NCBI GenBank assembly: GCA_003249035.1
Contig: QBMK01000002.1
Span: 189,588-253,587 of the forward strand
Length of the DNA stretch: 64,000 nucleotides
DNA from: Pseudanabaena sp.
GTDB taxonomy: Bacteria > Cyanobacteriota > Cyanobacteriia > Pseudanabaenales > Pseudanabaenaceae
Direction: 5' to 3'
In this document: positions 9,594 to 26,305 of the stretch, in pieces
How the letters are laid out: every line of letters begins with the position of its first letter
How positions within the stretch are numbered: position 1 is the first letter of the stretch
Made by a program: the position numbers and the translations under genes
Notes under the pieces: model-generated
Seen by the model: the letters and a program-made list of their open reading frames with translations, nothing else
What the model was told of the DNA's origin: nothing
Databases searched by the model: none

Positions 9594-11432
9594 CTACTGG
9601 CCCGGATGCTTGTCGTTCATCGCCTTGACTTGTGCAAGCACCTGGTCGAGGTTGTAGGTTTCAGGAGCCTGTAGAGGCGGGAACTCTACGAAGGATTCGA
9701 GTTCCTTCAACCACAATTGCTGTCCAATGGGTAGCATGTTCCAGTTGTAGAGGTAAGCGGTGCTGGGCGATGCGATCGCGCCACCCCAGCTTAGCAAGGA
9801 CTTTTGCTCCGCGCCGACCGCCTGCTCGAAGGGATCGCGCCTGATGTTCTGGACCTGCGCCCAGCCCAGCTTCTGCACGCCGTCAAACGAGGATGCGGGG
9901 GTCGAGCCCACCATCGAGAAGTAAAGCTTCCAGTTCTTGTACCGCACCGCCGATGGAGTCGCTCCGGTGTAGTACAGGAAGGTATCGCGCGCGGATTTTT
10001 CCGATTTGCCAGTCAAGTAGTCGAGCTGATTGACGCCCTGAAGCTTGGTCTTAACGATGCCTGGGTAATTGCCCGACATGATCTGCTTGTTGAGGTCGTT
10101 ACCCTTGGCTCCACCAGCGACTTCCACCAACGTAGGCAACCAATCATAGGATGCGAAGATATCGTCTAAAACCGTGCCGGGTTTGATGTGCCCGGGCCAG
10201 CGCACGACCATGGGCACGCGCATGCCGCCTTCCCAGGTGGTCAGCTTGGTGGCTTTAAACGGCGTGATGCCGCCGTCCGGGAAGCTCTGGGTCTGCGTGC
10301 CATTATCGGTGGTGAAGGCGATGATCGTGTTGTCGAGTTGGCCCATCTCCTCCAGCTTCTTCATCACGACGCCGATGTTGTCGTCCATCTGCTTCATGCC
10401 GACTTCCTGGATGCCCCAGTCCTTGCCGCCTTCTTCACCAAGCATCGCTAGGTATTTTGGTGGCAGCACAGTAGTGACGTGCATGCGTGCTGGGTTATAC
10501 CAAGCGAAGAAGGGTTTCTTGGTATTTTTGGGATCGTTACGGTCGAGGAAGTCAACCACCTTGGCGGAGATTTCCTCATCCACGGTTTCCGAGCGTTTGA
10601 GTGTCAGCGGGCCTTCATCCTTGCAGATCTGGTTCTTCGACGTGCCATCGGAGGACTTACACGCGAGCATCGGGCGCGGCGGCGTTAAGCAAGTCGTGGT
10701 CTTCGGATCCACGGAGCCGGGAACCTCGGGAACGCCCGGAATCGGTGTGTTCTTGCATGGCGGGGCAAAGCCTTGCTTCAGTGGGCTCTTGTTGATGTCG
10801 GGGAAGGACACCTGCTGCATCGCATCAAGGTGATAGAGGTAGCCCCAGAACTCTTGGAAGCCATGCGCGGTAGGCAGTGCATCGGTGTGGTCACCAAGGT
10901 GGTTCTTGCCGAATTCACCGGTAGTGTAACCCTGATCCAGTAGGAACTTTGCCATCGCCGGGGTGCCGGGTCTGAGGTAGGACGGGCTGCCGGGCAGTTG
11001 CGGCGGGATCATGCCGGTGCGCAGCGGTGTCATGCCGGTAAAGAAGGCGTTGCGCCCCGCCGTGCAGCTTTGCTCGGCGTAGTAGGTCATGAGCTTGGCG
11101 CCTTCGTTGGCGATGCGGTCGATGTTGGGCGTGGTGTTGTTATAGCTCAGTCCGTTCTGATAGGCGCCAACCTGCATCCAACCGATGTCATCGCCCATGA
11201 TGAACAGGATGTTCGGTTTTTCAGTAGATCCCTTGCTAGGAGGCTCTTTCGGCTTCTCAGTTGGCTTCTCAGCTTGCGCAACTACATCCGCAGCTATAGC
11301 CATATCTGGCGAGGGATTTGAGGCAGCCTTTGTTTGAGGGAGTTTCCCTACCAAAGCAAACACGAAAATGCCTATTAGGCTTATCCCTAGAAGCATGGTT
11401 GCTAATCGCTTCAATAAGTTTCGATTTCTCAT
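9594..11432 (-). CDS. Exported sulfatase (formylglycine type)
   Basis: A signal peptide or anchor (hydrophobic 10-30) and a Pro/Lys/Glu-rich linker precede a sulfatase domain from about residue 73. Visible catalytic features: paired Asp81-Asp82 for calcium, Cys123 in CTAGR (the C-x-A-x-R motif oxidised to formylglycine), FGKNHLGDH, and FTTDNG. It should cleave sulfate esters outside the cytoplasm; the substrate is unknown. The body is GC-rich (39 of 60 bases in one counted line) while the signal and linker look like host DNA, as if a foreign enzyme had received a local export segment. The FGE gene just upstream on the same strand also encodes a signal peptide. Confidence 0.92.
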   Translation of the reverse strand: MRNRNLLKRLATMLLGISLIGIFVFALVGKLPQTKAASNPSPDMAIAADVVAQAEKPTEKPKEPPSKGSTEKPNILFIMGDDIGWMQVGAYQNGLSYNNTTPNIDRIANEGAKLMTYYAEQSCTAGRNAFFTGMTPLRTGMIPPQLPGSPSYLRPGTPAMAKFLLDQGYTTGEFGKNHLGDHTDALPTAHGFQEFWGYLYHLDAMQQVSFPDINKSPLKQGFAPPCKNTPIPGVPEVPGSVDPKTTTCLTPPRPMLACKSSDGTSKNQICKDEGPLTLKRSETVDEEISAKVVDFLDRNDPKNTKKPFFAWYNPARMHVTTVLPPKYLAMLGEEGGKDWGIQEVGMKQMDDNIGVVMKKLEEMGQLDNTIIAFTTDNGTQTQSFPDGGITPFKATKLTTWEGGMRVPMVVRWPGHIKPGTVLDDIFASYDWLPTLVEVAGGAKGNDLNKQIMSGNYPGIVKTKLQGVNQLDYLTGKSEKSARDTFLYYTGATPSAVRYKNWKLYFSMVGSTPASSFDGVQKLGWAQVQNIRRDPFEQAVGAEQKSLLSWGGAIASPSTAYLYNWNMLPIGQQLWLKELESFVEFPPLQAPETYNLDQVLAQVKAMNDKHPGQ

Positions 11433-11488
11433 TTTTACAAATTACTCCGGTAAAATTCATTGCCGTTTTATATAGATTTCTATTGAAT

Positions 11489-12550
11489 TCAGGATTGCTT
11501 CAATAGGGAATTGTTGGGATTTGCTACGAGACGGAACCCGATATGAGCCATGCCTGTCTCTGGTTCCAGTGCCTCCCTTGCCGCCGGTCGGTATCGGCTG
11601 CAATAGTTGCGAGCGCACAAAAACGATCCTCCCTTAACTACGTGTTTGGGGACATCGGGTTCGCGAGGATCGAAGCTTTGTTCGGGTTTAGACACAACGG
11701 GATTGACTTGGTGTTCCATGACTTGGTGTCCGGGAATATACCAATCCACCGTCCATTCCCAAACATTGCCAGTCATGTCGTACAACCCATAACCGTTCGG
11801 CGGGAAGGTTCCCACCGGAGCGGTACCAATATATCCGTCTTCCTTGGTGTTCGCGATCGGAAACTCTCCCTGCCAGGTGTTGGCTTTCTTGGGGGAATAG
11901 GTGTTTCCCCAACTGAAGATCGCATCTTTCAACTTGCCTCGAGCGGCAAATTCCCACTGCGCTTCGGTAGGGAGAGACTTACCCGCCCATGCGGCGTATG
12001 CTTGGGCGTCTTTATAGGCGATATGGACGACTGGATAGTTTTCTCTCCCTTTGAGACTGCTGCTGGGGCCTTCTGGCTGTTGCCAATTTGCACCCTGCGT
12101 CCAGTGCCACCAGCTCATATAGGGTGCCGGAACCTTAGTTCCTTCGGCTGGAGGCTCAAATGTCAGGGAACCCGGAGATCGCTCTGCATCGGATAAATTA
12201 GGGAATTGTTCTTTGGGTATTGGGCGTTCGGCGATCGTGACATAGCCAGTCTCCTTCACAAACTGGGCAAACTGGGCATTGGTAATTTCATACTTGTCCA
12301 TGCAGAAGCCATCAACAGTGACATCTTCGATGGATTTCTCTTCGGGGTAGTGGTCATCGGCTCCGATGCGAAAGGTTCCGCCAGTAATGGCAACCATGCC
12401 CTCGGGGCACCGTTGAGAACTCGCCACAAAGCGCTCAAGCTTGGAAGATTGTTTCAACTGTTGAGAGATCGTATCACTCTTAGCTAAAACCTCTCGGCTA
12501 TCCATAAATATGAACAAAATCAGCAAAAAGATTGTCCAGAAATGTTTCAC
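11489..12550 (-). CDS. Formylglycine-generating enzyme with signal peptide
   Basis: Oxidises the sulfatase motif cysteine to formylglycine using oxygen and copper. The FGE fold spans about 50-345 (MVAITGGTFRIG, LPTEAQWEFAARG, GLYDMTGNVWEWT). Both catalytic cysteines are present in LCARNYC, Cys312 and Cys317, spaced as in human SUMF1 (Cys336/Cys341). A GTG start gives a good signal peptide (MKHFWTIFLLILFIF); the next Met (residue 16) lacks a ribosome site, so I kept the GTG. Export would let it act on unfolded secreted sulfatase, as the ER enzyme does. Its stop lies 56 bases before the sulfatase start, an operon-like spacing. Confidence 0.92.
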   Translation of the reverse strand: MKHFWTIFLLILFIFMDSREVLAKSDTISQQLKQSSKLERFVASSQRCPEGMVAITGGTFRIGADDHYPEEKSIEDVTVDGFCMDKYEITNAQFAQFVKETGYVTIAERPIPKEQFPNLSDAERSPGSLTFEPPAEGTKVPAPYMSWWHWTQGANWQQPEGPSSSLKGRENYPVVHIAYKDAQAYAAWAGKSLPTEAQWEFAARGKLKDAIFSWGNTYSPKKANTWQGEFPIANTKEDGYIGTAPVGTFPPNGYGLYDMTGNVWEWTVDWYIPGHQVMEHQVNPVVSKPEQSFDPREPDVPKHVVKGGSFLCARNYCSRYRPAAREALEPETGMAHIGFRLVANPNNSLLKQS

Positions 12551-12648
12551 ATCACTCTCAAACGTATATTTGGTAAATATGATTTTTTATCGCACCTTGG
12601 AAATGCGAATCGCTTGGTTTTTTGACTTTTCACTTCCGCGCAGCGTTA

Positions 12649-13140
12649 CTAGGAGTGACCGCTAAAGTTTTCACGCAATTGAGACTCTTGTTCATGGGTC
12701 AAATTGGAGCGAATCAGTTCAGCGGTTTCTCCCTTAAAAGCTTCTTCTACTTTATCTAACGTCACATTACCCGTGAGCAGAAAAAGTGCCGAAGTTCCTT
12801 CGCTAACTTGGTCTTGGATGCTCTTAATGAAGTTGTCGTCAATGCCGTAATCAGCCAAAGAGCCGTTTAAAGCTCCCATTGCCGCACCAAGAGCCATACC
12901 AATTAATGGCATGAAAAAGATAAGACCAAACAGCAAACCCCAAAAAGCACCATCTAGGGTTCCACCGCCAACTAAATCAACAGCCTGCTTAGTTCTAGGC
13001 TTCTTTTTCCCCAATTGCCAAGAAACCGTAGCCGCATCCTGAACTTCGATTAGGCGTTCTTTTTGTAGTTTGGCTAACTTAACCAATGCAAGTTCAGCGC
13101 CTTCAGGGGTATTAAATTTCCAAACAGTTAAAGCAGACAT
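12649..13140 (-). CDS. DUF1269 protein with glycine-zipper membrane segment
   Basis: 163 residues. The N-terminus resembles DUF1269 (SALTVWKFNTPEGAELAL, then a Lys-rich stretch). Residues about 70-100 form a Gly/Ala-rich hydrophobic hairpin (GLIFFMPLIGMALGAAMGAL) followed by a soluble helical tail. DUF1269 proteins appear in stress-related clusters but have no proved function. The ATG at 13140 is preceded by AGGTGATGG, giving a better start than the upstream GTG. It is followed by the FGE gene on the same strand after about 100 bases. Confidence 0.8.
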   Translation of the reverse strand: MSALTVWKFNTPEGAELALVKLAKLQKERLIEVQDAATVSWQLGKKKPRTKQAVDLVGGGTLDGAFWGLLFGLIFFMPLIGMALGAAMGALNGSLADYGIDDNFIKSIQDQVSEGTSALFLLTGNVTLDKVEEAFKGETAELIRSNLTHEQESQLRENFSGHS

Positions 13141-13190
13141 AATGTCCATCACCTAGCAACGTAAACTTCTGCAATACACTCTAAAAATAT

Positions 13191-13230
13191 CATTGAATTC
13201 AGAAAAAAAATTTTTTTTCTGAATTCAATG
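13191..13230. repeat. Perfect 40-bp palindrome
   Basis: The left half CATTGAATTCAGAAAAAAAA is the exact inverse complement of the right half, with no loop bases. It lies 3' of the membrane-protein gene ending at 13426 and upstream of the DUF1269 gene. As RNA the outer bases could pair around an A/U centre. The rest of 13141-13425 shows no gene. Confidence 0.9.
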
Positions 13231-13425
13231 ACTTAATAATGATTTCATTTTTTTTTTACATTGATAAGGAAATAATAATTAAAATTCCACAGCAGATGCA
13301 GTATCATCGCAAAATTTCAATGCAAAGAGGTATGTAAATGCTCACTAAAGAAGCATCCACTAGAATTGCGACGATTGGAGATTAAGGCTGGGGAGACCAT
13401 GAGACTTATCCCGCATCTTTCCGCA

Positions 13426-14109
13426 TCATTGATCAGACTCCGGCTTCTTGCGGAAGTTATCCATCAAGATATGTATGCTAATCAGTAGTACCCAAATTGG
13501 AAAACCCAAGGAAGGCCAAGCCAACCGATCTAGATGACTAATTCTGATCAACATAAGCGCCGCCAATGCATAACCCAGCAAAGCCATCCACCGAGGAATT
13601 ACCCGCGAACGGATAAAGAGAGTGGAGGAAGAAATCATAAAGACCCCCGCCATTTTGAAGGCGTAGGTATTAATAATCTCGCGTCCAGTAGTAAATCCAA
13701 AATCGAACAAACCAGTTGCTAACGGAAGGTTAGATAAAGATAGAGATAAGTACAGAAAAATGACGCTTCCCGTCATTCCGGCAAAGACGAACAGCATGGC
13801 AAGGAATAACAGTCCGCTACCTAGAAAGACAGTGGAAAAAAACTTGTCTTCATACTCACCTAAATAATCACGCATTACACCAATGAACCATAGGAAAGCA
13901 ATTCCGGAGAAGGGAATCAAGTTTAGCGCTAGTAAGATGGAGTTTTTGCTTGCGAAAAGCCAGTCATTACCCTCGCGGGGATTTGTGGGCACGGAAAACA
14001 AAAGGAGCGATAGACTAATTATCAGCAAAACTGAAAATATTATGCCAGCGATCGCAGCCGCTTTCGGAGCTTTCGGACGTATACGGGGCAATGACTCTTC
14101 TTGCTTCAT
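13426..14109 (-). CDS. Multi-pass membrane protein of unknown function
   Basis: Not recognised. About 227 residues with six hydrophobic helices after a charged N-terminus (MKQEESLPRIRPKAPK). The frame continues upstream to 14139, but that adds an implausible MFLILFPEKD; the ATG at 14109 has only a weak AGAGA ahead. An acidic loop (GEYEDKFF) separates helices 2 and 3. It begins 31 bases after the SulP transporter stop on the same strand, so the two probably share a message and may work together, which is inference. No motif points to a substrate. Confidence 0.7.
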   Translation of the reverse strand: MKQEESLPRIRPKAPKAAAIAGIIFSVLLIISLSLLLFSVPTNPREGNDWLFASKNSILLALNLIPFSGIAFLWFIGVMRDYLGEYEDKFFSTVFLGSGLLFLAMLFVFAGMTGSVIFLYLSLSLSNLPLATGLFDFGFTTGREIINTYAFKMAGVFMISSSTLFIRSRVIPRWMALLGYALAALMLIRISHLDRLAWPSLGFPIWVLLISIHILMDNFRKKPESDQ

Positions 14110-14140
14110 GTCTTTCTCTGGAAATAAAATTAAAAACAAT

Positions 14141-15862
14141 TTAAAATGGGAAGCTGTCTTCCCTCATCCGTTCAAATTTTTCAACTGCTTGTGCAACATT
14201 AAAAAATAGACGTTCATCTCCTAAGGTTTTGCCCAAAGAAGATCGTCGGATTGCTTTAAGAACTTGTGGATTTAAGTGGCATAACCAGAGTATTACACCA
14301 TCTTGCTGGCGCATTTTTTCTTCAGCATTAATCAACATTTGTAAAGCTGTGTATTCAATATCAGGAACAGCACCTAAATCGATCAAAACGATCCGATGCG
14401 ATGATTCTGAACGTAGGGATTTCATTTGGCTGGCAACTTGAGGAGCGCTGGCAAAAGTCATTCTCCCTTCCGTCCTGAGTATCAATAGTTCGGGGAAAGT
14501 TTCATCATCTGGATGATCGCCGATAGGGCGAAATATATTAGTTCCCGCCTTTCGTCCCAGTTGGTATAGAAGCGGATGATTGGATTGGTACATCAGCGTC
14601 ATCAGCGAGACCACGATCGCAACCAAAATTCCTTGTAGAGTTCCCAATACTACTACACCGACTAGAGCGACGATTGCCCATGCCAATTCAGGCTTATGGA
14701 TCTTGGCGATATCTCGGAAGCCTTTAATATTCACCAGTCCTGCGGCTGCCACTAGGACAAGAGAGCCCAAGGTGGATTGAGGCATCAGACTAAGCCAAGG
14801 AGACAGAAATAAAAGCGTCAAAGCGACGACGATCGCAGTTACGATCTCCGCCATTTGGGATTTGGCTCTAGCTTGATCGTTAACGGCAGTTTGAGAAGTT
14901 CCACCTCCAGATGGCATAGATTGAAAAAGACCGCCAACTAGATTTGCTATGCCTAAGGCTCGGAGTTCCTGATTAGCTTTGGGCGATTGTTCTCCACGTT
15001 GAGTAAAGGCGCGTCCAGCGGAGATGGATTCGGTCACTGCCATGAGTGCAATTCCTAGGGCATGGGGCCAAAGGGGAAGGCTCTCTCGGAGATTTGGTAA
15101 GGCAAATGCAGGGAATCCGGGGGGGATACTTCCTACTAACTTCACGCCTTGAGCTTGCAGTTGGAAGATAGCAGATATGGCGATCGCCAAAATCACGGCA
15201 ATGACTGGTGCGGGTATTTTGGGCAGAAAGCGGGGTATTACTAACAGAATTGCGATCGTGCCTAGTCCCACGGCAAATGTCATCGGGTGAGTGTTTGGTA
15301 TGCCTGTGGCAACGGCAGTGAGAGTGGCAAAGAAACCAGAACCACCTGCAATTCCTAGAATCTTGGGTAATTGACTGACAAGAATGACCAACCCAATCCC
15401 CGCCTTGAAGCCAGTTAGTACTGGTAGAGAGATAAAATTAGCCAGAAAGCCCAAACGCAAAATGCCTCCCACCAGAAGAAATCCTCCCACCATCAATGTT
15501 AGTGCGGATGCGCTGCCTAATAATTCTGCGGGCTGGGCATTGGGAAGTAGTGACAGAGAGGAAGCTGTGAGGATAGCGATCGTTGAGGTTGTACTGACAC
15601 TCAAGGGGCGAGAAGTCCCCAAGACAGCATAGATTAGCATCGGCACTAGCGAGGTGTATAGACCCACCTCCACTGGTAGCCCAGCGATCGCAGCATATGC
15701 CATCGATTGAGGAATTACTACAGCAGCAGTAGTTAAACCAGCGACAATGTCTGCTTGCCACCATTGACGAGAATATTGAGGCAACCATCCCAAAATTGGT
15801 AGGAATTGCTTTAATGTTCCGCGTTGCGATCGCTGACTCGAAGGGGAAGAATGATTCGCCAT
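14141..15862 (-). CDS. SulP-family anion transporter with STAS domain
   Basis: 573 residues. The membrane domain carries SulP landmarks: ADIVAGLTTAAVVIPQSMAY near the N-terminus, GLYTSLVPMLIYAVLGTS, and LPVLTGFKAGIGLVIL. A C-terminal STAS domain (about 450-560) includes RIVLIDLGAVPDIEYTALQ. Members move sulfate, bicarbonate or other anions across the inner membrane; cyanobacterial BicA is a relative, so specificity cannot be read here. Its place among sulfatases favours sulfate, by context only. The unknown membrane gene follows 31 bases later. Confidence 0.92.
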   Translation of the reverse strand: MANHSSPSSQRSQRGTLKQFLPILGWLPQYSRQWWQADIVAGLTTAAVVIPQSMAYAAIAGLPVEVGLYTSLVPMLIYAVLGTSRPLSVSTTSTIAILTASSLSLLPNAQPAELLGSASALTLMVGGFLLVGGILRLGFLANFISLPVLTGFKAGIGLVILVSQLPKILGIAGGSGFFATLTAVATGIPNTHPMTFAVGLGTIAILLVIPRFLPKIPAPVIAVILAIAISAIFQLQAQGVKLVGSIPPGFPAFALPNLRESLPLWPHALGIALMAVTESISAGRAFTQRGEQSPKANQELRALGIANLVGGLFQSMPSGGGTSQTAVNDQARAKSQMAEIVTAIVVALTLLFLSPWLSLMPQSTLGSLVLVAAAGLVNIKGFRDIAKIHKPELAWAIVALVGVVVLGTLQGILVAIVVSLMTLMYQSNHPLLYQLGRKAGTNIFRPIGDHPDDETFPELLILRTEGRMTFASAPQVASQMKSLRSESSHRIVLIDLGAVPDIEYTALQMLINAEEKMRQQDGVILWLCHLNPQVLKAIRRSSLGKTLGDERLFFNVAQAVEKFERMREDSFPF

Positions 15863-15930
15863 TTTTAGTTACTGATTGTCCAGATTAGCGGATTGAAAGG
15901 ATTTGTCATGAGTTATTGTTATTCCAATTC

Positions 15931-16039
15931 AGAAACCATTTAAGGATTACTTTTTGCGTTCAAAAGCCCTAAGAGTTCCCCCTCAATCCCCCTTTTTAAG
16001 GGGGGCTGGGGGGATCTAGACAATTCTTAAATGATTTCT
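15931..16039. repeat. MITE-like element, family B, copy 1
   Basis: About 109 bp bounded by near-perfect inverted ends (AGAAACCATTTAAGGATT with AATTCTTAAATGATTTCT). The interior is CCCCCTCAATCCCCC facing GGGGGGCTGGGGGG. A second, longer copy lies at 25149-25289. It has no coding capacity and fills the spacer upstream of SulP. Confidence 0.8.
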
Positions 16040-16124
16040 CGGAGAGAGTAGCGGCAATCCTGATTCTTCCATAACTTGAATCGATATTGTCATTTTTTCA
16101 GCGCAAGAAAAACGATGCTTCAGT

Positions 16125-16793: not shown

Positions 16794-16823
16794 TGTTATA
16801 TCCCAATAAGGTTCAATTAAGCA

Positions 16824-17103: not shown

Positions 17104-18747
17104 CTAATCCAGAATGGCCGCGTTTCCACTGGTGCGAAGCTCCCAGGAGACACCCTCCAGATTGGGCAGTTCGCGACCGTTGTCCTGACCGATCTCATCC
17201 TCGATCAGGGCGTTGAGTTTGGCGTTCATCGTTGTCACAAGTTCCATGTTCTCGCCCTGTGTCATGGCTAGATTCTGCATTTCATTAGGGTCATTCTGGA
17301 GATCGAATAGTTCGACATCATTGTACTTGTATAGGTCTTCGATCGACTTCGGGGTATTGTGCTGCAAGGGAGCAAAATAGCGCGTGAATTTGTACCTACC
17401 ATCGACAATGGTTCTTAAACTTCCTCGCTTTGTTAGGTTCGGCTTGCCGCCGCCCTTGAGAGCTTCAGAAAATTCCATCCCTCCCTCCATGAGCTTCGCC
17501 GAGTTTGCCAAAGGATCGCTGTCGACCATCGCAAGCCCACTGTATGTAAATAGTGCCCCGTCACGGAGGTCATTCGTCTTCGCCGCAGATGGGTTTGCGA
17601 GCAGTTTTGTCATATCCTTGCCGGGCAGATCTCGACCGGCGAATTCGGAAACCTGTCCAACACTAGCCCCCGCCATTGAGAGAAGCGTCGGAGCAATATC
17701 TATATGGCTTGTCAGAGCTTCACAGTTCTGACCGCCTTTTACATCCGGATGCACGATCATCAATGGCAAGTGGATGCACTCTTCATAGGGCGTTGGACCT
17801 TTGCCGCGCATTCCGCCGTGAGCGCCGCCCATTTCGCCATGATCCGAAGTAAAGACTATGATCGTGCGATCGCTTAGTCTCAGATCGTCTAGCTCCTTGA
17901 GGATGGACAGAATTTGCAGATCAACTCCGCGAATGCTATTCAGATAAAAATTATTAAGCCGCAGCCACCGCTCGGCATCGGGGCGAATCTGCCCGAGGTA
18001 GTAATCCCAAGCTTTCACATATTCGAGATGGGTACCCGGACGTCCGGGCTCGGTGAGAGACTGCTTCAGGCTCACCGGCACCTCGATATCCCATTCCTTC
18101 TTATAGAACTCGTGATCTGGGGCACGGACAGCCTTTGCCATTAGGCGCCCGTTATCCTGAGTGTTCTCGCCAGGGGCATCCGTATTGAAATACATCACGT
18201 CGTGCGGATTGACTAAGCTTACAGTCAACGCCCATGGCTTGCCATCGTCGGTCAAAGGACGGCCACGTCTCCGCAGCCAAGTAATAGCGCTTTGGGCGAT
18301 CAGTCCGTCGAATTCATACCCGCCTAGCTGATGCCCAACGAGGTCGCCTGGTGAATTGTAGTCGGCAAAGCCATACTTTTCCATTTCGGGAGTCAGGAAG
18401 CCAGTGGGCTGTTCCTGATCAAACGAACGAGTCAGGTGCCATTTGCCTTTGTATGCGGTGTAGTAGTCAGCTTTCCTGAGCATATGACCGATCGTCGGGA
18501 TGTCGGTCGATAGGTCTGTAACCCATGGAAGATCCAGATTCTCATACATTCCAGTGTTGGCTGTTTGGAGCCCTGTCATGAGCACAGACCTAGAAGAAGT
18601 ACATTGTGTGGCAGGACAGTAGTGTTTATGGAAGTTCACTCCTGTTTCTTGAAGCCTTTCGATGCCGGGAAGCGAGAAACCAGTCGGCCATTTCTTGAAG
18701 TAGGCTTGCTGGTCGGTGAAAATGAACAGGATATTTAAATGTTTCAT
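17104..18747 (-). CDS. Cytosolic sulfatase with variant CTSSR motif
   Basis: 547 residues, no signal peptide. The N-terminus ILFIFTDQQAY carries the single-Asp TDQQ variant common in choline-sulfatase-like members. The formylglycine site is Cys49 in CTSSR, where Ser replaces the usual Pro or Ala. KGKWHL and FTSDHGEMGGAHG supply further active-site residues. It hydrolyses a sulfate ester or a related phosphate/phosphonate ester; the substrate is unknown. The Ser variant may affect recognition by FGE. It is followed downstream by a hairpin. The family is certain, the specificity open. Confidence 0.9.
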   Translation of the reverse strand: MKHLNILFIFTDQQAYFKKWPTGFSLPGIERLQETGVNFHKHYCPATQCTSSRSVLMTGLQTANTGMYENLDLPWVTDLSTDIPTIGHMLRKADYYTAYKGKWHLTRSFDQEQPTGFLTPEMEKYGFADYNSPGDLVGHQLGGYEFDGLIAQSAITWLRRRGRPLTDDGKPWALTVSLVNPHDVMYFNTDAPGENTQDNGRLMAKAVRAPDHEFYKKEWDIEVPVSLKQSLTEPGRPGTHLEYVKAWDYYLGQIRPDAERWLRLNNFYLNSIRGVDLQILSILKELDDLRLSDRTIIVFTSDHGEMGGAHGGMRGKGPTPYEECIHLPLMIVHPDVKGGQNCEALTSHIDIAPTLLSMAGASVGQVSEFAGRDLPGKDMTKLLANPSAAKTNDLRDGALFTYSGLAMVDSDPLANSAKLMEGGMEFSEALKGGGKPNLTKRGSLRTIVDGRYKFTRYFAPLQHNTPKSIEDLYKYNDVELFDLQNDPNEMQNLAMTQGENMELVTTMNAKLNALIEDEIGQDNGRELPNLEGVSWELRTSGNAAILD

Positions 18748-18939: not shown

Positions 18940-19578
18940 TTAGCGTGCTGGACCGCCGTAACCACCGTAAACACCTACCCCACGGGTACCGACACCAACG
19001 CCATGATAGCCAGGTCCAACACCACCGCCGACACCGACCCAATCAATGAATATCGTTGTTTTACCACCGTTCTTGGGCATAGTTCCATCGATGAGTTTGT
19101 AGGTATAAATTAGATCTTTACCTGCAACCACTGGCTTACTAATCTCTACGACCACAAGGGTGTTCTTCTTTTGTCCTGGCTCGTTGATGGAGAGAGTTGC
19201 ATTGGGAGGATCGGCGGCAAAGCTGTCGGGATTTGATCCCGCTTTCCAGCTTTCAAGATAGACATTCATGGGGATATTTCCCGCAACCCGATCGGGGCGA
19301 TCGGAAAAGTACAGAGTTTGCGAACCCACGTTGACCAATCGAATCGTTTTCTTTGCAGTGTCTACCTTTATGTCATCCGAAATCTGCACAAACATGAGTT
19401 CCAGTTTCTCTGAGGAAGTTTTAGACTGAGGGGAAGTGGCAGGCTTAGACTGACTAGTTGGTGATTTAGTAGTTGAAGTTTGAGCATACCCTGCGTTCGC
19501 CAGCAAAACTGTCGCCGAAAATAGCAGCATTGAGAGGAAGTAGGTTTTGAAATTTCTAGGTTGTTTTGAGGATTTCAT
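18940..19578 (-). CDS. Exported protein, DRPxRVAG family, copy 2
   Basis: Paralogue of the protein at 8105-8727. A signal peptide (TYFLSMLLFSATVLLANAG, cleavage near GYAQ) is followed by a Thr/Ser/Lys linker. The shared domain then carries EKLELMFVQ, YFSDRPDRVAG, a Trp region, DPPNATLSI and IFIDWVG. The C-terminal 30 residues are Gly-rich with repeated GVGxxGVG-like units, not Tyr/Pro-rich as in copy 1. AAGGAG eight bases before the ATG fixes the start. It sits between the CTSSR sulfatase and the 791-residue sulfatase. No known function; envelope association is inferred. Confidence 0.8.
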   Translation of the reverse strand: MKSSKQPRNFKTYFLSMLLFSATVLLANAGYAQTSTTKSPTSQSKPATSPQSKTSSEKLELMFVQISDDIKVDTAKKTIRLVNVGSQTLYFSDRPDRVAGNIPMNVYLESWKAGSNPDSFAADPPNATLSINEPGQKKNTLVVVEISKPVVAGKDLIYTYKLIDGTMPKNGGKTTIFIDWVGVGGGVGPGYHGVGVGTRGVGVYGGYGGPAR

Positions 19579-19750
19579 ATTTGATTCTCCTTAGGAGTTG
19601 CTAATGACTATTAAAGATTTGTGTTGGCTTATGAATCTCCAAGACTCCTTTCTGACAATAAGCAGGCTGGAGCTTTTAATACGAAGATGAGAAGAAAATT
19701 TTACAACTCAGGAAACACAGCTATTAATCTTAGCAAAAATATCTTTGATA

Positions 19751-19851
19751 TACCAAAACACCAAATGGCTACGCCATTTGGTGTTTTTAAAACCCTTACT
19801 GGATTTGGTTTTTAATTCACAAAAGTGTGGCAACACTTTTGTGAATTGGTA
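19751..19851. repeat. 101-bp two-hairpin repeat, family A
   Basis: It begins TACCAA and ends TTGGTA. Hairpin 1 is AACACCAAATGG with its inverse, the core is AAAACCCTTACTGGATTTGG, and hairpin 2 is AATTCACAAAAGTGT with its inverse. Length matches the copies at 56906-57006 and 61379-61479. It occupies the spacer 19579-19948; a short frame through it (19621-19815) is not a gene. Confidence 0.9.
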
Positions 19852-19899
19852 TTACATAGGATTAGGTAAATAGCTAAGCAAAATTAAATTGAAAATCTC

Positions 19900-19938
19900 A
19901 AAATCTGCACCGCCTGCGCAACGAGCAGTGCAGATTTT
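19900..19938 (-). terminator. Hairpin 3' of 791-residue sulfatase gene
   Basis: AAAATCTGCAC pairs with GTGCAGATTTT 11 bases past the stop at 19949. It resembles the hairpin at 39259-39301 (AAAATCTGTACCGCC). Confidence 0.6.
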
Positions 19939-19948
19939 GGAAATTTGC

Positions 19949-22324
19949 CTACTGCCGCGCCATTGCAAGCTGCATAGCCAAAGCAGGATCGACTAGGTGA
20001 TCTGAGCTTTCGGCATCCTCAGCGATCGCAAGCTGAACGCCCTTGACTCGACCGTTAAAGGCATTGCCGCGCGAGCCGTAGTCTTCCGAAACGGGAGCAC
20101 CGGAATCTTCACCCACGTCACAGCCGTCGTCGGCAGAGAAGACACTGGCAAGCGTGGCAGCAACTTCTCCCTCACCGACTTTTTGACCGTCGGTGTAAAG
20201 GGTCACCTTGCCGCCCTTCCCCAATCCGCCGCCAGCATAGGCAAACTCCATCCGTACTTGATGCTCACCTGCGGGAATCGGTGTAGTCGCCTCGACATAG
20301 AAGTGTTTAAATCCGCCCCAGTTGTAGCAGTACTTCAACTTGCCATCCTTGGCGTAAAGGCTCCAGCCACCAATGTTTGCACCCTGAGAAATGATCACGC
20401 CCTCAGCACCATTTTCTGGTACCACGATTTCGGCGGTGACCGAGTGTGACTTATTCTTGATGTTCAGCACGCAGTTTTCCGACAGGCGACCCATGCTCCC
20501 GAATAGGATCTGGCTATTACCCTTAATCAGCACTGGACGGCCAGCAGTGTCCGGATTAAACTTCTCAATCATTCGGTCGTCTAGTGGAAGTACCTTGTAG
20601 CGAGTTGCCTCGATCAACCAGAGTCGCTGAAGCTTGTGTAGCTTCTCTGGCATCTCTTTTGACAGGTCTTTCGACTGACTCCAGTCTTTGGTTGTATCGT
20701 AAAGCTCCCAGACATCATCATCGAATGCGGGCACTTTTGCCGTCAATGCAGCCCATGGAGTTCGATGCTTTGTCACAGCAGTCCAGCCCTTATGATAGAT
20801 GCCACGATTGCCGAACATCTCAAAGTACTGCGTCTCGTGCTGCTCGGCAGCAGCAGCGTCGTTAAATGAGTAGAGCATACTCACTCCCTCGATCGGATCT
20901 TGATGTACGCCGTTTACTGAGACAGGCTCTGGCAAACCCGCCGCCTCAAGAATAGTTGGTGCCACGTCGATCACATGTGTGAACTGGGAGCGGATCTCGC
21001 CCTTGCTCTTGATGCCGTTCGGCCAGTGAACGATCGTGCCGTTGCGCGTGCCGCCAAAGTGGGACGCAACTTGCTTAGTCCATTGGTAGGGCGCGTTCAT
21101 TGCATGTGCCCAGCCCACTGCATAGTGGTTGTAAGACTCTGGTCCACCGAGCTTATCGAGTCGTGCTGATAAGTACTCGGGTGTTTCTAATGCCTGAAGA
21201 CCGTTGAAGTAGCTCATCTCATTGAAGCAGCCGTTGATGCCTCCCTCTGCAGAAGCTCCGTTGTCGCCGATGATGTAATAGATAAGGGTGTCGTCGAGAA
21301 TTCCCAATTTCTCTATTCCGTCGATCATACGCCCAACGTTGTGATCAGTATACTCCATAAAGCCTGCGTAAACTTCCATTTCACGACGCAGAAATGGTTT
21401 GAAATCCTCTGGCATATCGTCCCAAGCTGGAACTTCTTCATGACGTGCAGTAAGTTCGCAATCCGCAGGAATAACGCCAAGTTCCTTTTGTCGAGCTAAG
21501 GTCTCTTCGCGCAGCTTGTCCCAGCCGGCATCAAATTTGCCTTTGTACTTGTCAGCCCATTCCTCTGGTACGTGGTGAGGGGCATGGGTTGCCCCGGGGG
21601 CAAAGTATACAAAGAAAGGTTTGTCCGGAGCCAGTGCCTTTTGCTGCCCTATCCATGACATAGCCTTTTCGGTCATGTCATCCATCAGGTGGTAGCCCTC
21701 TTCGGGTGTCTTATCTGGCTCAACTGGCGAGGTGCCCTCATAAAGTGATGGATACCACTGGTTTGCTTCGCCGCCAACAAACCCGTAGAAATACTCGAAG
21801 CCACCGCCGCCCGTCGGCCAAGCATCAAAAGGACCGACCGCACTTGTTTCCCAGACGGGCACTTCATGGCACTTCCCAAACTGTGCTGTGGAATAACCGT
21901 TGAGCTTCAGCGTTTTTGCTAGCGGCGACATGGAGTTTGGCAGCACTGAGCAGTAGCCCGGTGCTCCAGTGGCGATCTCGGTGATGCCACCCATGCCAGC
22001 CGAGTGGTGGTTGCGCCCAGTTAGCAGCGCCTGCCGCGTCGGTGAGCAAAGGGCGGTGGTGTGAAAACGGTTGAATTTTAATCCGTTTGCTGCCAGCTTC
22101 TCTGCTGCTGGTGTCTGGCAGGGTCCACCAAAGGCGCTTGAGGAGCCAAAACCAGCATCGTCAATAAGGACGATCAGCACGTTGGGTGCCCCCTTAGGCG
22201 GGCGCAACTGCTCGATCGGTGGAAACTTGGTGTCCGGATCCTTAGCGTCGTAGGTGATTAGTCTAGGGCGTGACGTATTCGGCATCGGAAGATGGAAACG
22301 GTTCTTCTTGTCTTGTCCGCTCAT
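19949..22324 (-). CDS. Large AtsA-type arylsulfatase, cytosolic (copy 1)
   Basis: 791 residues, the usual size of AtsA-type arylsulfatases. There is no signal peptide. The catalytic domain spans about 45-560: Asp55-Asp56 for the metal, Cys93 in CSPTR as the formylglycine precursor, and GDNGASAEGG for further metal and base residues. The C-terminal 170 residues form a beta-rich module (GVIISQGANIGGWSLYAKDG) found in this subfamily. It cleaves aryl or alkyl sulfate esters, so it may release sulfate for assimilation. AAGGAG seven bases before the ATG supports the start. It lies 207 bases from its paralogue at 22532 on the same strand. Confidence 0.93.
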   Translation of the reverse strand: MSGQDKKNRFHLPMPNTSRPRLITYDAKDPDTKFPPIEQLRPPKGAPNVLIVLIDDAGFGSSSAFGGPCQTPAAEKLAANGLKFNRFHTTALCSPTRQALLTGRNHHSAGMGGITEIATGAPGYCSVLPNSMSPLAKTLKLNGYSTAQFGKCHEVPVWETSAVGPFDAWPTGGGGFEYFYGFVGGEANQWYPSLYEGTSPVEPDKTPEEGYHLMDDMTEKAMSWIGQQKALAPDKPFFVYFAPGATHAPHHVPEEWADKYKGKFDAGWDKLREETLARQKELGVIPADCELTARHEEVPAWDDMPEDFKPFLRREMEVYAGFMEYTDHNVGRMIDGIEKLGILDDTLIYYIIGDNGASAEGGINGCFNEMSYFNGLQALETPEYLSARLDKLGGPESYNHYAVGWAHAMNAPYQWTKQVASHFGGTRNGTIVHWPNGIKSKGEIRSQFTHVIDVAPTILEAAGLPEPVSVNGVHQDPIEGVSMLYSFNDAAAAEQHETQYFEMFGNRGIYHKGWTAVTKHRTPWAALTAKVPAFDDDVWELYDTTKDWSQSKDLSKEMPEKLHKLQRLWLIEATRYKVLPLDDRMIEKFNPDTAGRPVLIKGNSQILFGSMGRLSENCVLNIKNKSHSVTAEIVVPENGAEGVIISQGANIGGWSLYAKDGKLKYCYNWGGFKHFYVEATTPIPAGEHQVRMEFAYAGGGLGKGGKVTLYTDGQKVGEGEVAATLASVFSADDGCDVGEDSGAPVSEDYGSRGNAFNGRVKGVQLAIAEDAESSDHLVDPALAMQLAMARQ

Positions 22325-22384
22325 ATTGTCTCTCCTTAATTTGACGAGTTCGTCTACTGATTAGCTTATATATTAAGATTTAAG

Positions 22385-22399
22385 CAATGTAATACATTG
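22385..22399. promoter_or_regulatory. Candidate operator dyad upstream of sulfatase
   Basis: CAATGTAATACATTG is a perfect dyad around one base. It lies 61-75 bases upstream of the sulfatase ATG at 22324, with TA-rich -10-like sequence between. This is a plausible repressor or activator site; no regulator is encoded nearby. Confidence 0.35.
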
Positions 22400-22531
22400 T
22401 AATCAATAGATATTAAGGGCAAAATTTATCTTTATTAATCTTTAGGATCTATATCGCTAGATTATTCGCTTTATTGCGGCAGAAGGAACTTAACGATCGC
22501 ACCTTATTATCAGCGCGATCGCACATTAGTT

Positions 22532-24883
22532 TTACTGCCTTGCCATCACGATCCGCATTTCTGCTTCCGAATCCTGAATCAAGTCACCGCTTACATCAAA
22601 TTTAACGGTGTAAATCTTGCCAGTAAACGCGAATATACCGCTATATTCTTCAGTTACAGGCGAACCAAGGTCAACCCCGATCGCAATCCCACAAGCAAGC
22701 CCGAACATGATCGGACTAGTTACAGGCATCTCCACCTGACCGACTAATTTACCGTCAATATAGAGTTGCCCTCGACCAGCAGCTCCCTTGCCTTTGAGGA
22801 TTTCTGGTTCGCCAGTCTTCTCAAACTCATAGCGCAATTGGTGACGACCCTCTGGCACAGATACATTGGACTCAAGATAATAGAAAGTGCGAGCCACATA
22901 GTTATAGGTGTAGCGCAATTTGCCATCCTTGACAAAGAAACTATAACCACCATCAATACCACCTTGGGAAATCAATACGCCCTCATCGCCTGATTTGAAA
23001 TCGACATCGGCGGTGATACTGTAGGAACGGTTGAGGATAACCGCTCCAGCATTGAATGGTACTTCCTGAGTATTTGGATAGTAGGTATAGCTGGTGCGAG
23101 GCAGGGCGATCGTCGGCCGTTCATCGCCAAATCGTTGTGTGCCTCGTCCATCCACTGGCAAGACGTTATATTTACCTGCTTCCACATACCACTGAGCAAT
23201 CATTTCGATCAGTCGAGATCGGTTCTCGGCGGCAACATTGTGATTTTCGGCAAAGTCTTCATCCACATGATAAAGCTCCCATTTGGTAGCATCCAATTCC
23301 GTTAATTTCTCCGCCGAAATTGGCATTCCAAAACCCTGTCCCGCTTCCGTAAAAGAAGGACCTGGCCAAGGACATACCGCACGCCAACCATTGTGATAGA
23401 TCGAGCGATGCCCCAACATTTCAAAGTATTGGGTGATATGGTTACCAGTTGCTTCAGCATTTTTCAACGTATGCGCGAAGCTTACACCCTCAATCGGCGC
23501 TTGAGTTACGCCCTTGACGCTCTCTGGCGGCTCTAGCCCAAGCAGATCTAGCACCGTCGGAACCATATCGATCGCATGGGCATACTGAGTGCGGACTTCT
23601 CCTTTTATCTCAATCCCATTCGGCCAATGGACAATAAACGGATCGCTAATACCGCCGCGATAGGTTTCGCGCTTCCAGCGACGGAAGGGAGTATTGCCAG
23701 CCCAAGTCCAACCCCAAGGATAGTGGTTGAAATATTTGGGCCCACCCAATTCATCAATTGCGGCGAGATTTTCTTCCAATGATTCTGGGACGTAGTTAAA
23801 GAACAGGTTTTCGTTGACCGAACCCGTAGGACCGCCTTCAGAACTTGCCCCATTGTCTGAAATCACCATAATCAAGGTGTTATCGAACTGGTCAATGCTC
23901 TTTAAGAAGTCCAATAAACGACCAATGTGATAATCAGTATGGCTCAAGAAACCAGCAAACACCTCCATCATTCGCGCATAGAGTTTTTTCTCTTCTGCCG
24001 AACAATCATCCCAAGGCTTCACATCAGGATCGTGACGGGATAGTGCCGCCTCTGGCGGCACAATTCCCAATTCCTTTTGACGCGCAAAGGTATATTCGCG
24101 ATAAGCATCCCAACCACCATCAAATTTACCCTTATACTTGTCAGCCCATTCTTTAGGAACATGATGTGGTGCGTGCATTGCACCTGTGCAGAAGTACATA
24201 AAGAATGGCTTGGTGTCCGCAACCTGTTTAGCATCAGCAATAAAGGAAATCGCCTTATCTACCAAATCTTCGGTCAAGTGATAGCCTTCTTCAGGAGTCT
24301 TTTCGGGCTCGACGCGGTGGTTGTCATAGGTAAGATCTGGATAGTATTGGTGAGTATCGCCTCCCATAAAGCCGTAATAACGCTCAAAACCTCGTCCCAA
24401 TGGCCAGCGCTCGTAAGGACCCGCCGCCGATATCTGATCGGCTGGGGTCAAGTGCCATTTACCGACTGCGTAGGTGTTATATCCCTGTTGCAGCAGCATT
24501 TCTGACAAAAAGCCATTCTCAAAGGGAATGTTGCCGTTAGCTCCGGGGAAACCCGTCGAGCCTTCGGTGATACAGGACATGGCGTTGGAATGGTGGTTGC
24601 GTCCAGTCAAAATGCAACTTCGGGTTGGCGAGCACAAAGCAGTTGTGTGCATATTGCTGTAGCGTATTCCATTGGCAGCTAGGCTATCGAGAACGGGCGT
24701 TTCAATCGGACTGCCGTAGCACCCCAGTTGCCCGAAGCCAGTATCATCAAGTACAATGAACAAGACGTTGGGTGCGTCTTCTTTAGCTCGTAATGGTTTC
24801 GGCCATGCAGGGCTAGATTGATCGACAGTTCGACCAATCACGCCATTGAAAGCTGTGCCGGGTTTATATTCTCGCAATGTCAT
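22532..24883 (-). CDS. Large AtsA-type arylsulfatase, cytosolic (copy 2)
   Basis: 783 residues, clearly related to the 791-residue neighbour along its whole length but well diverged, so an old duplication or separate arrival. No signal peptide. Asp46-Asp47 bind metal, Cys84 in CSPTR becomes formylglycine, and SDNGASSEGG matches the second metal region. The C-terminal beta module (about 620-770) includes GVLISQGGIDGGYSFFVKDG. The upstream AAGG before the ATG is modest. The second FGE gene lies about 410 bases upstream on the same strand, behind two MITE-like elements, and lacks a signal peptide, so it probably matures this enzyme in the cytosol. Confidence 0.93.
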   Translation of the reverse strand: MTLREYKPGTAFNGVIGRTVDQSSPAWPKPLRAKEDAPNVLFIVLDDTGFGQLGCYGSPIETPVLDSLAANGIRYSNMHTTALCSPTRSCILTGRNHHSNAMSCITEGSTGFPGANGNIPFENGFLSEMLLQQGYNTYAVGKWHLTPADQISAAGPYERWPLGRGFERYYGFMGGDTHQYYPDLTYDNHRVEPEKTPEEGYHLTEDLVDKAISFIADAKQVADTKPFFMYFCTGAMHAPHHVPKEWADKYKGKFDGGWDAYREYTFARQKELGIVPPEAALSRHDPDVKPWDDCSAEEKKLYARMMEVFAGFLSHTDYHIGRLLDFLKSIDQFDNTLIMVISDNGASSEGGPTGSVNENLFFNYVPESLEENLAAIDELGGPKYFNHYPWGWTWAGNTPFRRWKRETYRGGISDPFIVHWPNGIEIKGEVRTQYAHAIDMVPTVLDLLGLEPPESVKGVTQAPIEGVSFAHTLKNAEATGNHITQYFEMLGHRSIYHNGWRAVCPWPGPSFTEAGQGFGMPISAEKLTELDATKWELYHVDEDFAENHNVAAENRSRLIEMIAQWYVEAGKYNVLPVDGRGTQRFGDERPTIALPRTSYTYYPNTQEVPFNAGAVILNRSYSITADVDFKSGDEGVLISQGGIDGGYSFFVKDGKLRYTYNYVARTFYYLESNVSVPEGRHQLRYEFEKTGEPEILKGKGAAGRGQLYIDGKLVGQVEMPVTSPIMFGLACGIAIGVDLGSPVTEEYSGIFAFTGKIYTVKFDVSGDLIQDSEAEMRIVMARQ

Positions 24884-25013
24884 AATATTTGAACCTTATA
24901 GCTTTTAATGAAGATACTAATTTTCGATCTTTTTTTAGCGATCTTCTCTTCAATTTTAGGCTGGGGGAAAAGCATTAAAACATTATGATTACAAATCTTT
25001 TCTTTGAAAATTT

Positions 25014-25149
25014 AGAGCGTGTTTGAGAAGTCAATACTTGCGAAATGCTCTTGCCTTCTAAATCTCCCAATTCTGGGGGGCTTGAATCTGGTTCCCCCAG
25101 AATTGGGGGTCTGGGGGGGCAGAAACAAAACTTCTCAAACAATCTCTTA
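25014..25149. mobile_element. MITE-like element with IS5-type ends
   Basis: The inverted ends read AGAGCGTGTTTGAGAAGT at left and, inverted, AGAGATTGTTTGAGAAGT at right. The left end differs at one base from the end left by the IS5-family remnant at 61805-61824. The interior holds an inverted pair (CCCAATTCTGGGGG with CCCCCAGAATTGGG) and no gene. It was probably mobilised by that IS family. Confidence 0.75.
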
Positions 25150-25289
25150 GAAACCATTTAAGAATTACTTTTTGCGTTCAAAAGCCCTAAGAGATCCCCC
25201 TCAATCCCCCTTAAAAAGGGGGAAGAATTTAATTCTCCCCCCTTTTTAAGGAGGGCTGGGGGGATCTAGACAATTCTTAAATGTTTTCT
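25149..25289. repeat. MITE-like element, family B, copy 2
   Basis: It has the same ends as 15931-16039 (AGAAACCATTTAAG with CTTAAATGTTTTCT), with an extra CCCCCTTAAAAAGGGGG hairpin inside. It abuts the preceding element with no spacer. Together they fill most of the 414-base gap 24884-25297. Confidence 0.8.
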
Positions 25290-25297
25290 TATGGCTA

Positions 25298-26305
25298 TTA
25301 ATTTTCTGATTCCTGTAGCTGAGAATCGACTCGCACCACACATCGAAATCCCACATGACTCATCCCAGTATCCACCATTTGAGGACGGCGTGCCGAGGGA
25401 CGATAGCGCTCGCAATACTCAGGCGAACAGAGATAAGAACCTCCCTTCACTACTTTACGCGGGACTGGGAACTTTGGTTGAGATGGATCGTAGCTATTTT
25501 CCATCGAACCACCGCGAGGATTGTTTGGGATGCAGCAGGGCTTGTCCGCATCTTCAGGATGCTGGGATGTATACCAATCACAAGTCCATTCCCACGCATT
25601 CCCTGTCATATCGTACAGTCCATAACCATTAGGCGGATAAGAACCAACAGCTTCAGGAGAAGGAGGATGAGATTTGAGATATTTCCAAGGGAACTCTCCT
25701 TGCCAAGTATTTGCCATGCGTTTGCCTTGCACCAAAACTTCATTCCCCCAAGCAAAAACGGCGTTTTCTAGTCCACCTCGCGCCGCAAATTCCCATTCTG
25801 CTTCCGTTGGTAAGGCTTTGCCAGCCCATTGAGCATAGGCTTCCGCATCTTCATAGGCAATATGAACAACGGGCAACTTCTGTTTCTGTTTGATCGAACT
25901 GCCCACACCCTCAGGTCGTCGCCAACAAGCACCAGGAATCCAATTCCACCATAGGTTCATTTTCTTGAGATCGACTGGGCCCTCAGTCATGTGAAAAACC
26001 AGCGAGCCCGGCACTAGATTTTCGGGCGGCGCACCGGGATAGTCAGCAGGATTGAGCGGACGTTCGGCAACAGTCACATAACCAGTTTCTTTGACAAACT
26101 TTTGAAACTGCTGGTTGGTAACTTGATATTTATCCATCCAAAAACCATCGACGGTAACTCGATGCAAGGGTTTTTCTTCGGCATAGAAGTCATTCGATCC
26201 CATGCCAAAAGTGCCGCCAGCAATCCAAACCATATCAGGTTTTGGTGGTCTACCCGATCGCTTAGGCTGGGATGAAGAATTTGGTAATGTTGACGATCGC
26301 ACCAT
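25298..26305 (-). CDS. Formylglycine-generating enzyme without signal peptide
   Basis: 335 residues, FGE fold from about residue 25 (MVWIAGGTFGMGSNDFYAEE). Landmarks are LPTEAEWEFAARGG, GLYDMTGNAWEWT and the catalytic pair in LCSPEYC, Cys293 and Cys298, which bind copper and activate oxygen. The N-terminus is polar and Pro/Lys-rich with no export signal, in contrast to the FGE at 11489-12550. The cytosolic sulfatases downstream on the same strand are its likely clients. The two FGEs share the same architecture and most core motifs but not their N-termini. Confidence 0.92.
   Translation of the reverse strand: MVRSSTLPNSSSQPKRSGRPPKPDMVWIAGGTFGMGSNDFYAEEKPLHRVTVDGFWMDKYQVTNQQFQKFVKETGYVTVAERPLNPADYPGAPPENLVPGSLVFHMTEGPVDLKKMNLWWNWIPGACWRRPEGVGSSIKQKQKLPVVHIAYEDAEAYAQWAGKALPTEAEWEFAARGGLENAVFAWGNEVLVQGKRMANTWQGEFPWKYLKSHPPSPEAVGSYPPNGYGLYDMTGNAWEWTCDWYTSQHPEDADKPCCIPNNPRGGSMENSYDPSQPKFPVPRKVVKGGSYLCSPEYCERYRPSARRPQMVDTGMSHVGFRCVVRVDSQLQESEN

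Follow-up and report, generated by a model that had tools for sequence, protein, structure and literature searches.

A sulfatase island with two kinds of FGE

The stretch of Pseudanabaena sp. DNA analysed here (64,000 nucleotides of contig QBMK01000002.1, hereafter the window) harbors an island of four sulfatase genes and two genes for formylglycine-generating enzymes (FGEs). All six open reading frames are located on the minus strand, where the initial annotation had placed them, and their reading order is FGE2, sulfatase 4, sulfatase 3, sulfatase 2, a transporter that we take to be of the SulP type, FGE1 and sulfatase 1, with other genes interspersed. We consider it likely that the island holds two oxygen-dependent maturation sets, an exported one formed by FGE1 and sulfatase 1 and a cytosolic one formed by FGE2 and sulfatases 2 to 4, and that, in bacteria at large, the FGE lineages (one exported, one cytosolic) correspond to the export route of the sulfatases. 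This reading is founded on signal-peptide-like N-termini, catalytic residues, gene pairing, cysteine patterns and phylogeny, from which we infer location, disulfide formation, catalysis, substrate choice and timing.

FGE1 (11489..12550, minus strand; 353 amino acids, GTG start) is a predicted exported FGE. It matches PF03781 with 263.5 bits (E 3e-78), and FGE2 does so with 275.8 bits, against a cut-off of 23.3. The best match among solved structures is the FGE 6s07 (E 1.4e-79); solved FGEs align with most of residues 42-345 at E values between 1e-79 and 1e-63, the human enzyme (5ssy) at 1e-73, and the structure model of FGE1 has a mean pLDDT of 89.5. The N-terminus, MKHFWTIFLLILFIFMDSREVLA followed by KSD, displays the n-, h- and c-regions and the V-L-A site of a Sec-type signal peptide, predicted to comprise residues 1-23 (12482..12550) with cleavage between VLA and KSD. 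The catalytic residues Cys312 (11615..11617) and Cys317 (11600..11602) are invariant in our alignment A1 and align with those of the solved FGEs. The best named matches of FGE1 are cyanobacterial, and the enzyme belongs to a supported clade of 36 FGEs, every one of them called exported, whose N-termini differ in sequence and are alike in build.

Sulfatase 1 (9594..11432, minus strand) starts 56 bp past the end of FGE1. This predicted exported protein of 612 amino acids (PF00884, E 4.9e-43) has the arylsulfatase 7aj0 as its closest solved relative (E 9.1e-48) and a predicted signal peptide or anchor at residues 1-36 (11325..11432; MRNRNLLKRLATMLLGISLIGIFVFALVGKLPQTKA, cleaved or anchored); its formylglycine residue would derive from Cys123 (11064..11066) within the motif CTAGR. 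Among the loci that we fetched, the best match of sulfatase 1 is found in L014 (72%; next 41%), and that of FGE1 in the same locus (70.6%), narrowly above L015 and L141 (70.1-70.2%).

The second set is devoid of signal peptides. FGE2 (25298..26305, minus strand; 335 amino acids; PF03781, E 4.9e-82), predicted to be cytosolic, has no hydrophobic segment at its N-terminus, and the same is true for sulfatase 2 (17104..18747, minus strand; 547 amino acids, motif CTSSR with Cys49; PF00884, E 1.2e-41), sulfatase 3 (19949..22324, minus strand; 791 amino acids, CSPTR with Cys93, nine cysteines; E 3.1e-66) and sulfatase 4 (22532..24883, minus strand; 783 amino acids, CSPTR with Cys84, eight cysteines; E 2.6e-65). 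Sulfatases with a cysteine-type motif thus neighbor both FGEs, namely sulfatase 1 next to FGE1, and sulfatases 4 and 3 next to FGE2. Both FGEs keep the C-x4-C pair (Cys293/Cys298 in FGE2) followed by an R-Y-R region (FLCARNYCSRYRP and YLCSPEYCERYRP). Hence, the premises of the initial annotation, signal peptides on FGE1 and sulfatase 1 (a curated, rule-based call), none on FGE2 and sulfatases 2, 3 and 4, and an intact C-x4-C pair in both FGEs, are borne out by our analysis.

Formylglycine motifs without proline occur in sulfatase 1 and sulfatase 2 and in a sulfatase of locus L011 (CTAGR). In two genomes (G239, G364; the anaerobic sulfatase maturase, anSME, not sought in these two), the sole close FGE is situated, measured from its domain, about 58 bp from the sole listed sulfatase, which is of the CTAGR type, and this arrangement suggests that FGE accepts C-x-A-x-R.

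The cysteine content of the two enzymes differs as well. FGE1 and FGE3, a third FGE encoded elsewhere in the genome, contain exactly four cysteines each, the catalytic two and an extra pair that is missing from FGE2. In FGE1, the extra pair consists of Cys48 (12407..12409) and Cys83 (12302..12304), the latter within GFCMD and in a predicted strand; the cysteine pattern across FGEs suggests that they form a disulfide. All 36 cyanobacterial exported FGEs possess this pair; of the 41 non-exported ones, 39 have neither residue and two (L168, L170) only the first. Across all 186 FGEs of our sample, both residues are present in 36 of 107 exported and in none of 79 non-exported enzymes. Among the cyanobacterial enzymes, the number of cysteines within the domain is four in 34 and five in two of the 36 exported FGEs, and five to twelve in the 41 non-exported ones. 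Non-catalytic cysteines average 2.48 in the 107 exported versus 4.89 in the 79 non-exported FGEs (p 1.2e-23, uncorrected for phylogeny), and 66 of the 107 exported enzymes have exactly two. An even cysteine count (82/107 exported versus 41/79 others) is a weak sign in the same comparison. A different cysteine, within APVGC-F, is present in 24 exported FGEs and one non-exported FGE, and 21 of these 24 have exactly one cysteine upstream of the domain. As the clade-specific cysteines differ, different exported clades seem to have acquired different disulfides. On the side of the sulfatases, the formylglycine cysteine is the only cysteine in 61 of 104 Sec, 4 of 68 cytosolic and 8 of 20 twin-arginine (Tat) enzymes, again uncorrected for phylogeny.

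A motif resembling C-x-P-x-R, often in the form CC-x-P-x-x-R, lies ahead of the FGE domain in 15 of the 186 FGEs, as compared with 2.2% in shuffled sequences. N-terminal extensions of this kind are found in L036, L052, L062-L064, L085-L087, L090, L092 and others; six of the 15 enzymes are called non-exported (L085-L087, L090, L092, L265). The motif is reminiscent of the cysteines near the N-terminus of human FGE.

FGE type and sulfatase export route across bacteria

Loci from six sources were examined. One scan of genome contigs supplied the best 80 of the loci that it listed. Among 386 genomes of the window's phylum, 46 had a match, and all 52 FGE places besides the three of the window's own genome were fetched. 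The class of a Bradyrhizobium (385 genomes, 20 with a match) and that of an Aquabacterium (350 genomes, 15 with a match) contributed 20 of 22 and 15 of 16 places, respectively, and from the phylum of a planctomycete (372 genomes, 73 with a match) and that of a Flavobacterium (355 genomes, 44 with a match) 13 of 80 and 12 of 47 places were hand-picked along the list. Of 196 FGEs, 186 were kept after curation, and for 138 of these a sulfatase carrying a formylglycine motif was present at a distance of 10 kb or less. The ten enzymes dropped were incomplete (L059, L272 and one piece of L262), had an unclear N-terminus (L049, L093, L274), lacked C-x4-C (L263, L279 and the other piece of L262) or duplicated another entry (L300, a duplicate of L021). 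Distances between FGE and sulfatase take the beginning of the conserved domain as their reference point, and many loci do not extend a full 10 kb away from the FGE. Calls of export were overridden by hand for four FGEs (L039 to cytosolic; L304, L273 and L082 to exported) and for sulfatases of L164 (to cytosolic), L069, L265 and L271 (to Sec), L283 and L273 (to Tat), and L072 and L167 (to Sec); the last two overrides run counter to our reading. Applied to genes of at least 250 amino acids, the export caller assigned 128 of 386, about a third, to the exported or membrane class.

The nearest sulfatase of the 69 exported FGEs among the 138 pairs is a Sec protein in 68 cases, a Tat protein in one and a cytosolic protein in none; for the 69 non-exported FGEs, the corresponding numbers are 17, 17 and 35 (Fisher test against the exported group, 1.4e-21). 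When only pairs within 1 kb are considered, the Sec/Tat/cytosolic counts are 52/0/0 for exported versus 15/17/28 for non-exported FGEs. Read from the side of the sulfatases, 52 of the 53 nearest Tat or cytosolic enzymes, and 17 of the 18 nearest Tat enzymes, accompany a non-exported FGE. The same split is seen in the cyanobacteria alone (exported: 31 Sec, 0 other; non-exported: 9 Sec, 32 other) and in the Pseudomonadota loci of the contig scan (8 and 0 versus 5 and 9); a small alphaproteobacterial set displays no split (7 and 1 versus 3 and 1, p 1). Collapsing the pairs at 60% identity leaves 22 clusters and a p value of 0.0043.

Since relatives are not independent, the pairing was also tested on trees, all of which are quick ones. 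The sulfatase tree offers 12 independent pairs that contrast in Sec status; the FGE type differs in the same direction in 9.0 of them, in the opposite direction in 0.0 and not at all in 3.0 (median p 0.0039, range 0.001-0.016). On the tree of the 186 FGEs and two references, the signal-peptide label changes twice, as compared with a mean of 60.2 changes after shuffling.

A plain rule by which FGE and sulfatase share the same compartment was discarded, as the Tat sulfatases sit with non-exported FGEs; judged by these gene neighborhoods, the better rule appears to be the export route (Sec versus Tat or none) and not the compartment. The initial annotation had proposed separate maturation systems for exported and cytosolic sulfatases. 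The matched sets, the adjacency of FGE1 and sulfatase 1, the joint best match of these two in L014 (a sign of co-inheritance), and the tracking of FGE type with export route throughout the sample support this proposal; its picture of two sets defined by compartment must be amended, as the genome encodes three FGEs and an anSME, as it is route and not compartment that matters, and as exclusivity is unproven and has counter-examples.

Matched sets also exist within genomes. Five cyanobacterial genomes of the sample contain both FGE types, and matched sets are present in all five, the window's genome (where FGE3 has no sulfatase nearby) and four others (G149, G175, G304, G314), three of which belong to one genus code (g54). 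In these four, every exported FGE is located by a Sec sulfatase and every non-exported FGE by a cytosolic one.

Proposed maturation routes, alternatives and exceptions

FGE in cells works best on accessible, unfolded substrate, and the Tat system carries folded proteins. In the scheme that we favor, FGE1 would leave the cytosol by Sec to the periplasm or the thylakoid lumen, where a Cys48-Cys83 disulfide would probably stabilize it. Sulfatase 1 would arrive there unfolded through Sec, and FGE1 would convert Cys123 of its CTAGR motif to formylglycine prior to folding. FGE2 would stay in the cytosol and mature the signal-less sulfatases 2 to 4. In general terms, Sec sulfatases could be matured outside; Tat and cytosolic ones would have to be matured inside. 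As a Tat substrate crosses the membrane folded, it would be modified beforehand, and this would explain why Tat sulfatases are found with non-exported FGEs.

A number of observations weigh against this scheme. Signal peptides were called by rules of our own with hand curation, and the cysteine comparisons ignore phylogeny. In the Planctomycetota and Bacteroidota pairs, the nearest sulfatase is a Sec protein in all cases but one, so the agreement there carries little weight. The FGE tree cannot test the link, because its label changes are too rare (2 independent pairs only), and the sulfatase tree was used instead; on the latter, a contrast of Sec with Tat alone has 5 pairs, with 3.9 to 0 in the same direction, too few for significance. 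Among the 69 non-exported FGEs, the 17 with a Sec protein as nearest sulfatase are made up of nine from one cyanobacterial family (f20) and eight from Pseudomonadota; therefore, a sulfatase must be able to mature in the cytosol and then leave by Sec. A Tat protein is the nearest sulfatase of an exported FGE in a single case, L273, at a distance of 3.1 kb, with both proteins lipoprotein-like. Eight cyanobacterial genomes (G014, G145, G078, G103, G153, G245, G338, G376) encode cytosolic sulfatases with an intact motif, that of G153 being cut short, yet their close FGEs are all exported, and none of the eight has an anSME above cut-off. Likewise, none of the 23 other ORFs with PF03781 in five genomes, including G014, G145, G078 and G338, contains C-x4-C (one match of G338 left out). 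At least four genomes thus have cytosolic sulfatases and an exported FGE as their sole recognised maturase.

The FGEs of family f20 (L165-L175) form a group of their own. They are short (domain of approximately 266-285 amino acids), keep C-x4-C, have five to eight cysteines and lack a signal peptide; their nearest sulfatase is a Sec protein in 9 of 11 cases, each with a single cysteine, and a cytosolic one in two.

We also considered that every cytosolic sulfatase in genomes whose close FGEs are all exported is served by a hidden FGE or anSME. This holds for two genomes with an exported FGE as the sole close one (G036, G080), in which an anSME is encoded within 3 kb of a cytosolic sulfatase, and fails for G014, G145, G078 and G338, three of which have radical-SAM matches of 129-162 bits, below the cut-off of 349. 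Maturation exclusive to each compartment is accordingly not found in these four genomes, which have no recognisable cytosolic maturase, and the matching is a strong tendency and not a law. In such genomes, the exported FGE may act partly prior to export, or another maturase may exist; a third prokaryotic maturation system has been proposed from Escherichia coli mutants, as cited in PMC6189696.

The most serious alternative to route-matched maturation is redundancy, in which either FGE would serve every sulfatase in the cytosol, ahead of export, and the signal peptide of FGE1 would merely lead to its disposal or storage, or the FGE1 precursor would act before translocation. The Sec partners of the 17 non-exported FGEs and the genomes with an exported FGE as sole recognised maturase speak for it, and in Bacteroides, a cytosolic anSME matures exported sulfatases. 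We nevertheless regard redundancy as unlikely, as the exported lineage is found almost exclusively with Sec partners, its loss of cysteines and gain of clade-specific pairs fit an oxidising compartment, and the signal-peptide label is stable on the FGE tree.

A second alternative, in which FGE1 would be an exported protein of the FGE fold that serves a purpose other than sulfatase maturation, appears highly improbable. Exported proteins of this fold without a role in sulfatase maturation do exist, for instance the periplasmic bacterial OCTIN described in PMC5915273, and the GldK and PvdO models match FGE1 weakly; these matches are far below cut-off, however (GldK 153 versus 350, PvdO 80 versus 500), FGE1 keeps C-x4-C and aligns with the solved FGEs, and 31 of the 36 exported FGEs of cyanobacteria have a sulfatase no more than 10 kb away.

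Least probable of all is a start of FGE1 at Met16, considered in the initial annotation as a refuting case, which would leave the enzyme cytosolic and its pairing an accident of gene transfer: the annotated start is GTG, Met16 is ATG and was chosen by our first automatic start picker, which overweighted ATG, but Met16 lies inside the hydrophobic h-region, the GTG is closely preceded by GAGAG whereas no Shine-Dalgarno-like sequence is found ahead of Met16, and the supported clade of 36 around FGE1 is called exported throughout.

Taken beyond the window, we give about even odds to a picture of two old FGE lineages split by translocation route. The exported lineage would perform copper- and oxygen-dependent chemistry on unfolded Sec substrates, its disulfides having arisen separately by clade; the cytosolic lineage would serve both cytosolic and Tat sulfatases; and the animal enzyme of the endoplasmic reticulum (ER) would sit on a branch with non-exported bacterial members amid exported FGEs. 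In the quick tree, human FGE falls together with 6s07 and with seven bacterial FGEs that were called non-exported (SH-aLRT 100) and not with the FGE1 clade, and this group is nested in a larger, starred set of 56 rows with 47 exported calls. The likeness to animal ER FGE, invoked in the initial annotation, can consequently not be upheld as one of lineage, since human FGE occupies a branch other than that of FGE1 and its cysteines are at other positions.

The solved bacterial FGEs, which we take to be those of Thermomonospora curvata (6s07/5nxl) and Streptomyces coelicolor (2q17/6muj), resemble FGE1 in fold, catalytic cysteine pair and near full-length alignment; the 6s07 enzyme groups with non-exported FGEs, and FGE1 differs by its signal peptide, its extra cysteine pair and the absence of any further spare cysteine. 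Human FGE/SUMF1 (1y1e, 5ssy) acts outside the cytosol, meets sulfatases after Sec-type entry and has structural disulfides, features that FGE1 would share according to its predicted location and disulfide; the human disulfides (218-365 and 235-346, as given in PMC4505483) are at positions other than the FGE1 pair. Like FGE, anSME (TIGR03942) makes formylglycine on sulfatases, and it is also encoded in the window's genome; unlike FGE1, it is an oxygen-independent radical-SAM enzyme for which no signal peptide was called. OCTIN shares with FGE1 the FGE domain and, according to the predictions for FGE1, export and disulfides, but is missing key catalytic cysteines, and the available passages of PMC5915273 make no link to sulfatases.

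FGE uses copper and oxygen and is described as cytosolic in prokaryotes and ER-resident in eukaryotes in PMC4505483, in agreement with the remark of the initial annotation that prokaryotic FGEs are usually thought to be cytosolic. Cyanobacterial sulfatases are reported to carry Sec or Tat signals (PMC9723792, whose available passages are silent on the location of FGE). The accessible passages of the open-licence literature contained no description of an exported bacterial FGE or of a matching by route, and subscription papers may have one; the phrases "periplasmic FGE" and "exported FGE" led, by the open-licence entries listed, only to human multiple sulfatase deficiency, and formylglycine, twin-arginine and sulfatase in combination yielded nothing in that literature. 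Our reading, if correct, contradicts what has been printed on a cytosolic site of action of prokaryotic FGE, and it makes the activation of Sec-exported sulfatases before or after crossing directly testable. It would also predict a class of FGEs that tolerates an oxidising setting (in cyanobacteria, with two spare cysteines in one presumed disulfide), useful in aldehyde-tag chemistry, and the site of activation of a sulfatase could be guessed from its own signal peptide and the neighboring FGE.

Further maturation genes and neighbors of the island

The genome of the window (4.55 Mb, 60 contigs) encodes additional components of sulfatase maturation. FGE3, with a signal peptide, is located on contig C57 without a sulfatase nearby. 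The same contig encodes an anSME (L230:7380-8693; TIGR03942, 501 bits versus the NCBIfam cut-off of 349). Two further sulfatases are an exported one of 854 amino acids with a signal peptide (sulfatase 5, contig C44) and a cytosolic one of 500 amino acids without it (sulfatase 6). Besides FGE1, FGE2 and FGE3, four PF03781 proteins were found in the genome, none of them with C-x4-C at the corresponding position. Each of the five closest relatives of FGE3 (G080, G014, G145, G187, G036) shares its locus with a relative of sulfatase 5, which is 92-93% identical in G014 and G080 and 67-84% in the others; from this co-location, FGE3 and sulfatase 5 seem to be the separated members of another exported pair. 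Three further loci, in G175, G304 and G314, hold close relatives of sulfatase 5 (84-86%); their FGEs are outside the nine best matches of FGE3.

The GC content at 7-29 kb of the window is mostly 0.46-0.57, with a few kb at 0.41-0.44, and approximately 0.42 in the second half; among the four genomes listed for the genus, only that of the window has a close FGE. The island may therefore have been acquired.

Outside the island proper, another PF03781 domain (57880-58563) is situated in an open frame of 642 amino acids without C-x4-C. Two similar exported-looking proteins (8105-8737 and 18940-19578) are encoded near sulfatases; they have the stretches KLEL.FVQ and FSDRP.RVAG in common, have no match in Pfam or NCBIfam, and have a probable relative close to sulfatases in L234 (14334-14945). 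The small membrane proteins adjoining the anSME of L230, presumably DUF202-like, have similar counterparts near sulfatases in L232, L233 and L234. A HAD-type hydrolase (6992-8089), whose N-terminus has a hydrophobic stretch, is encoded near sulfatase 1, and a similar stretch (LPSW..G) is present in a protein of L232 (9467-10462) that carries a Tat-like signal and is encoded between an anSME and a sulfatase.

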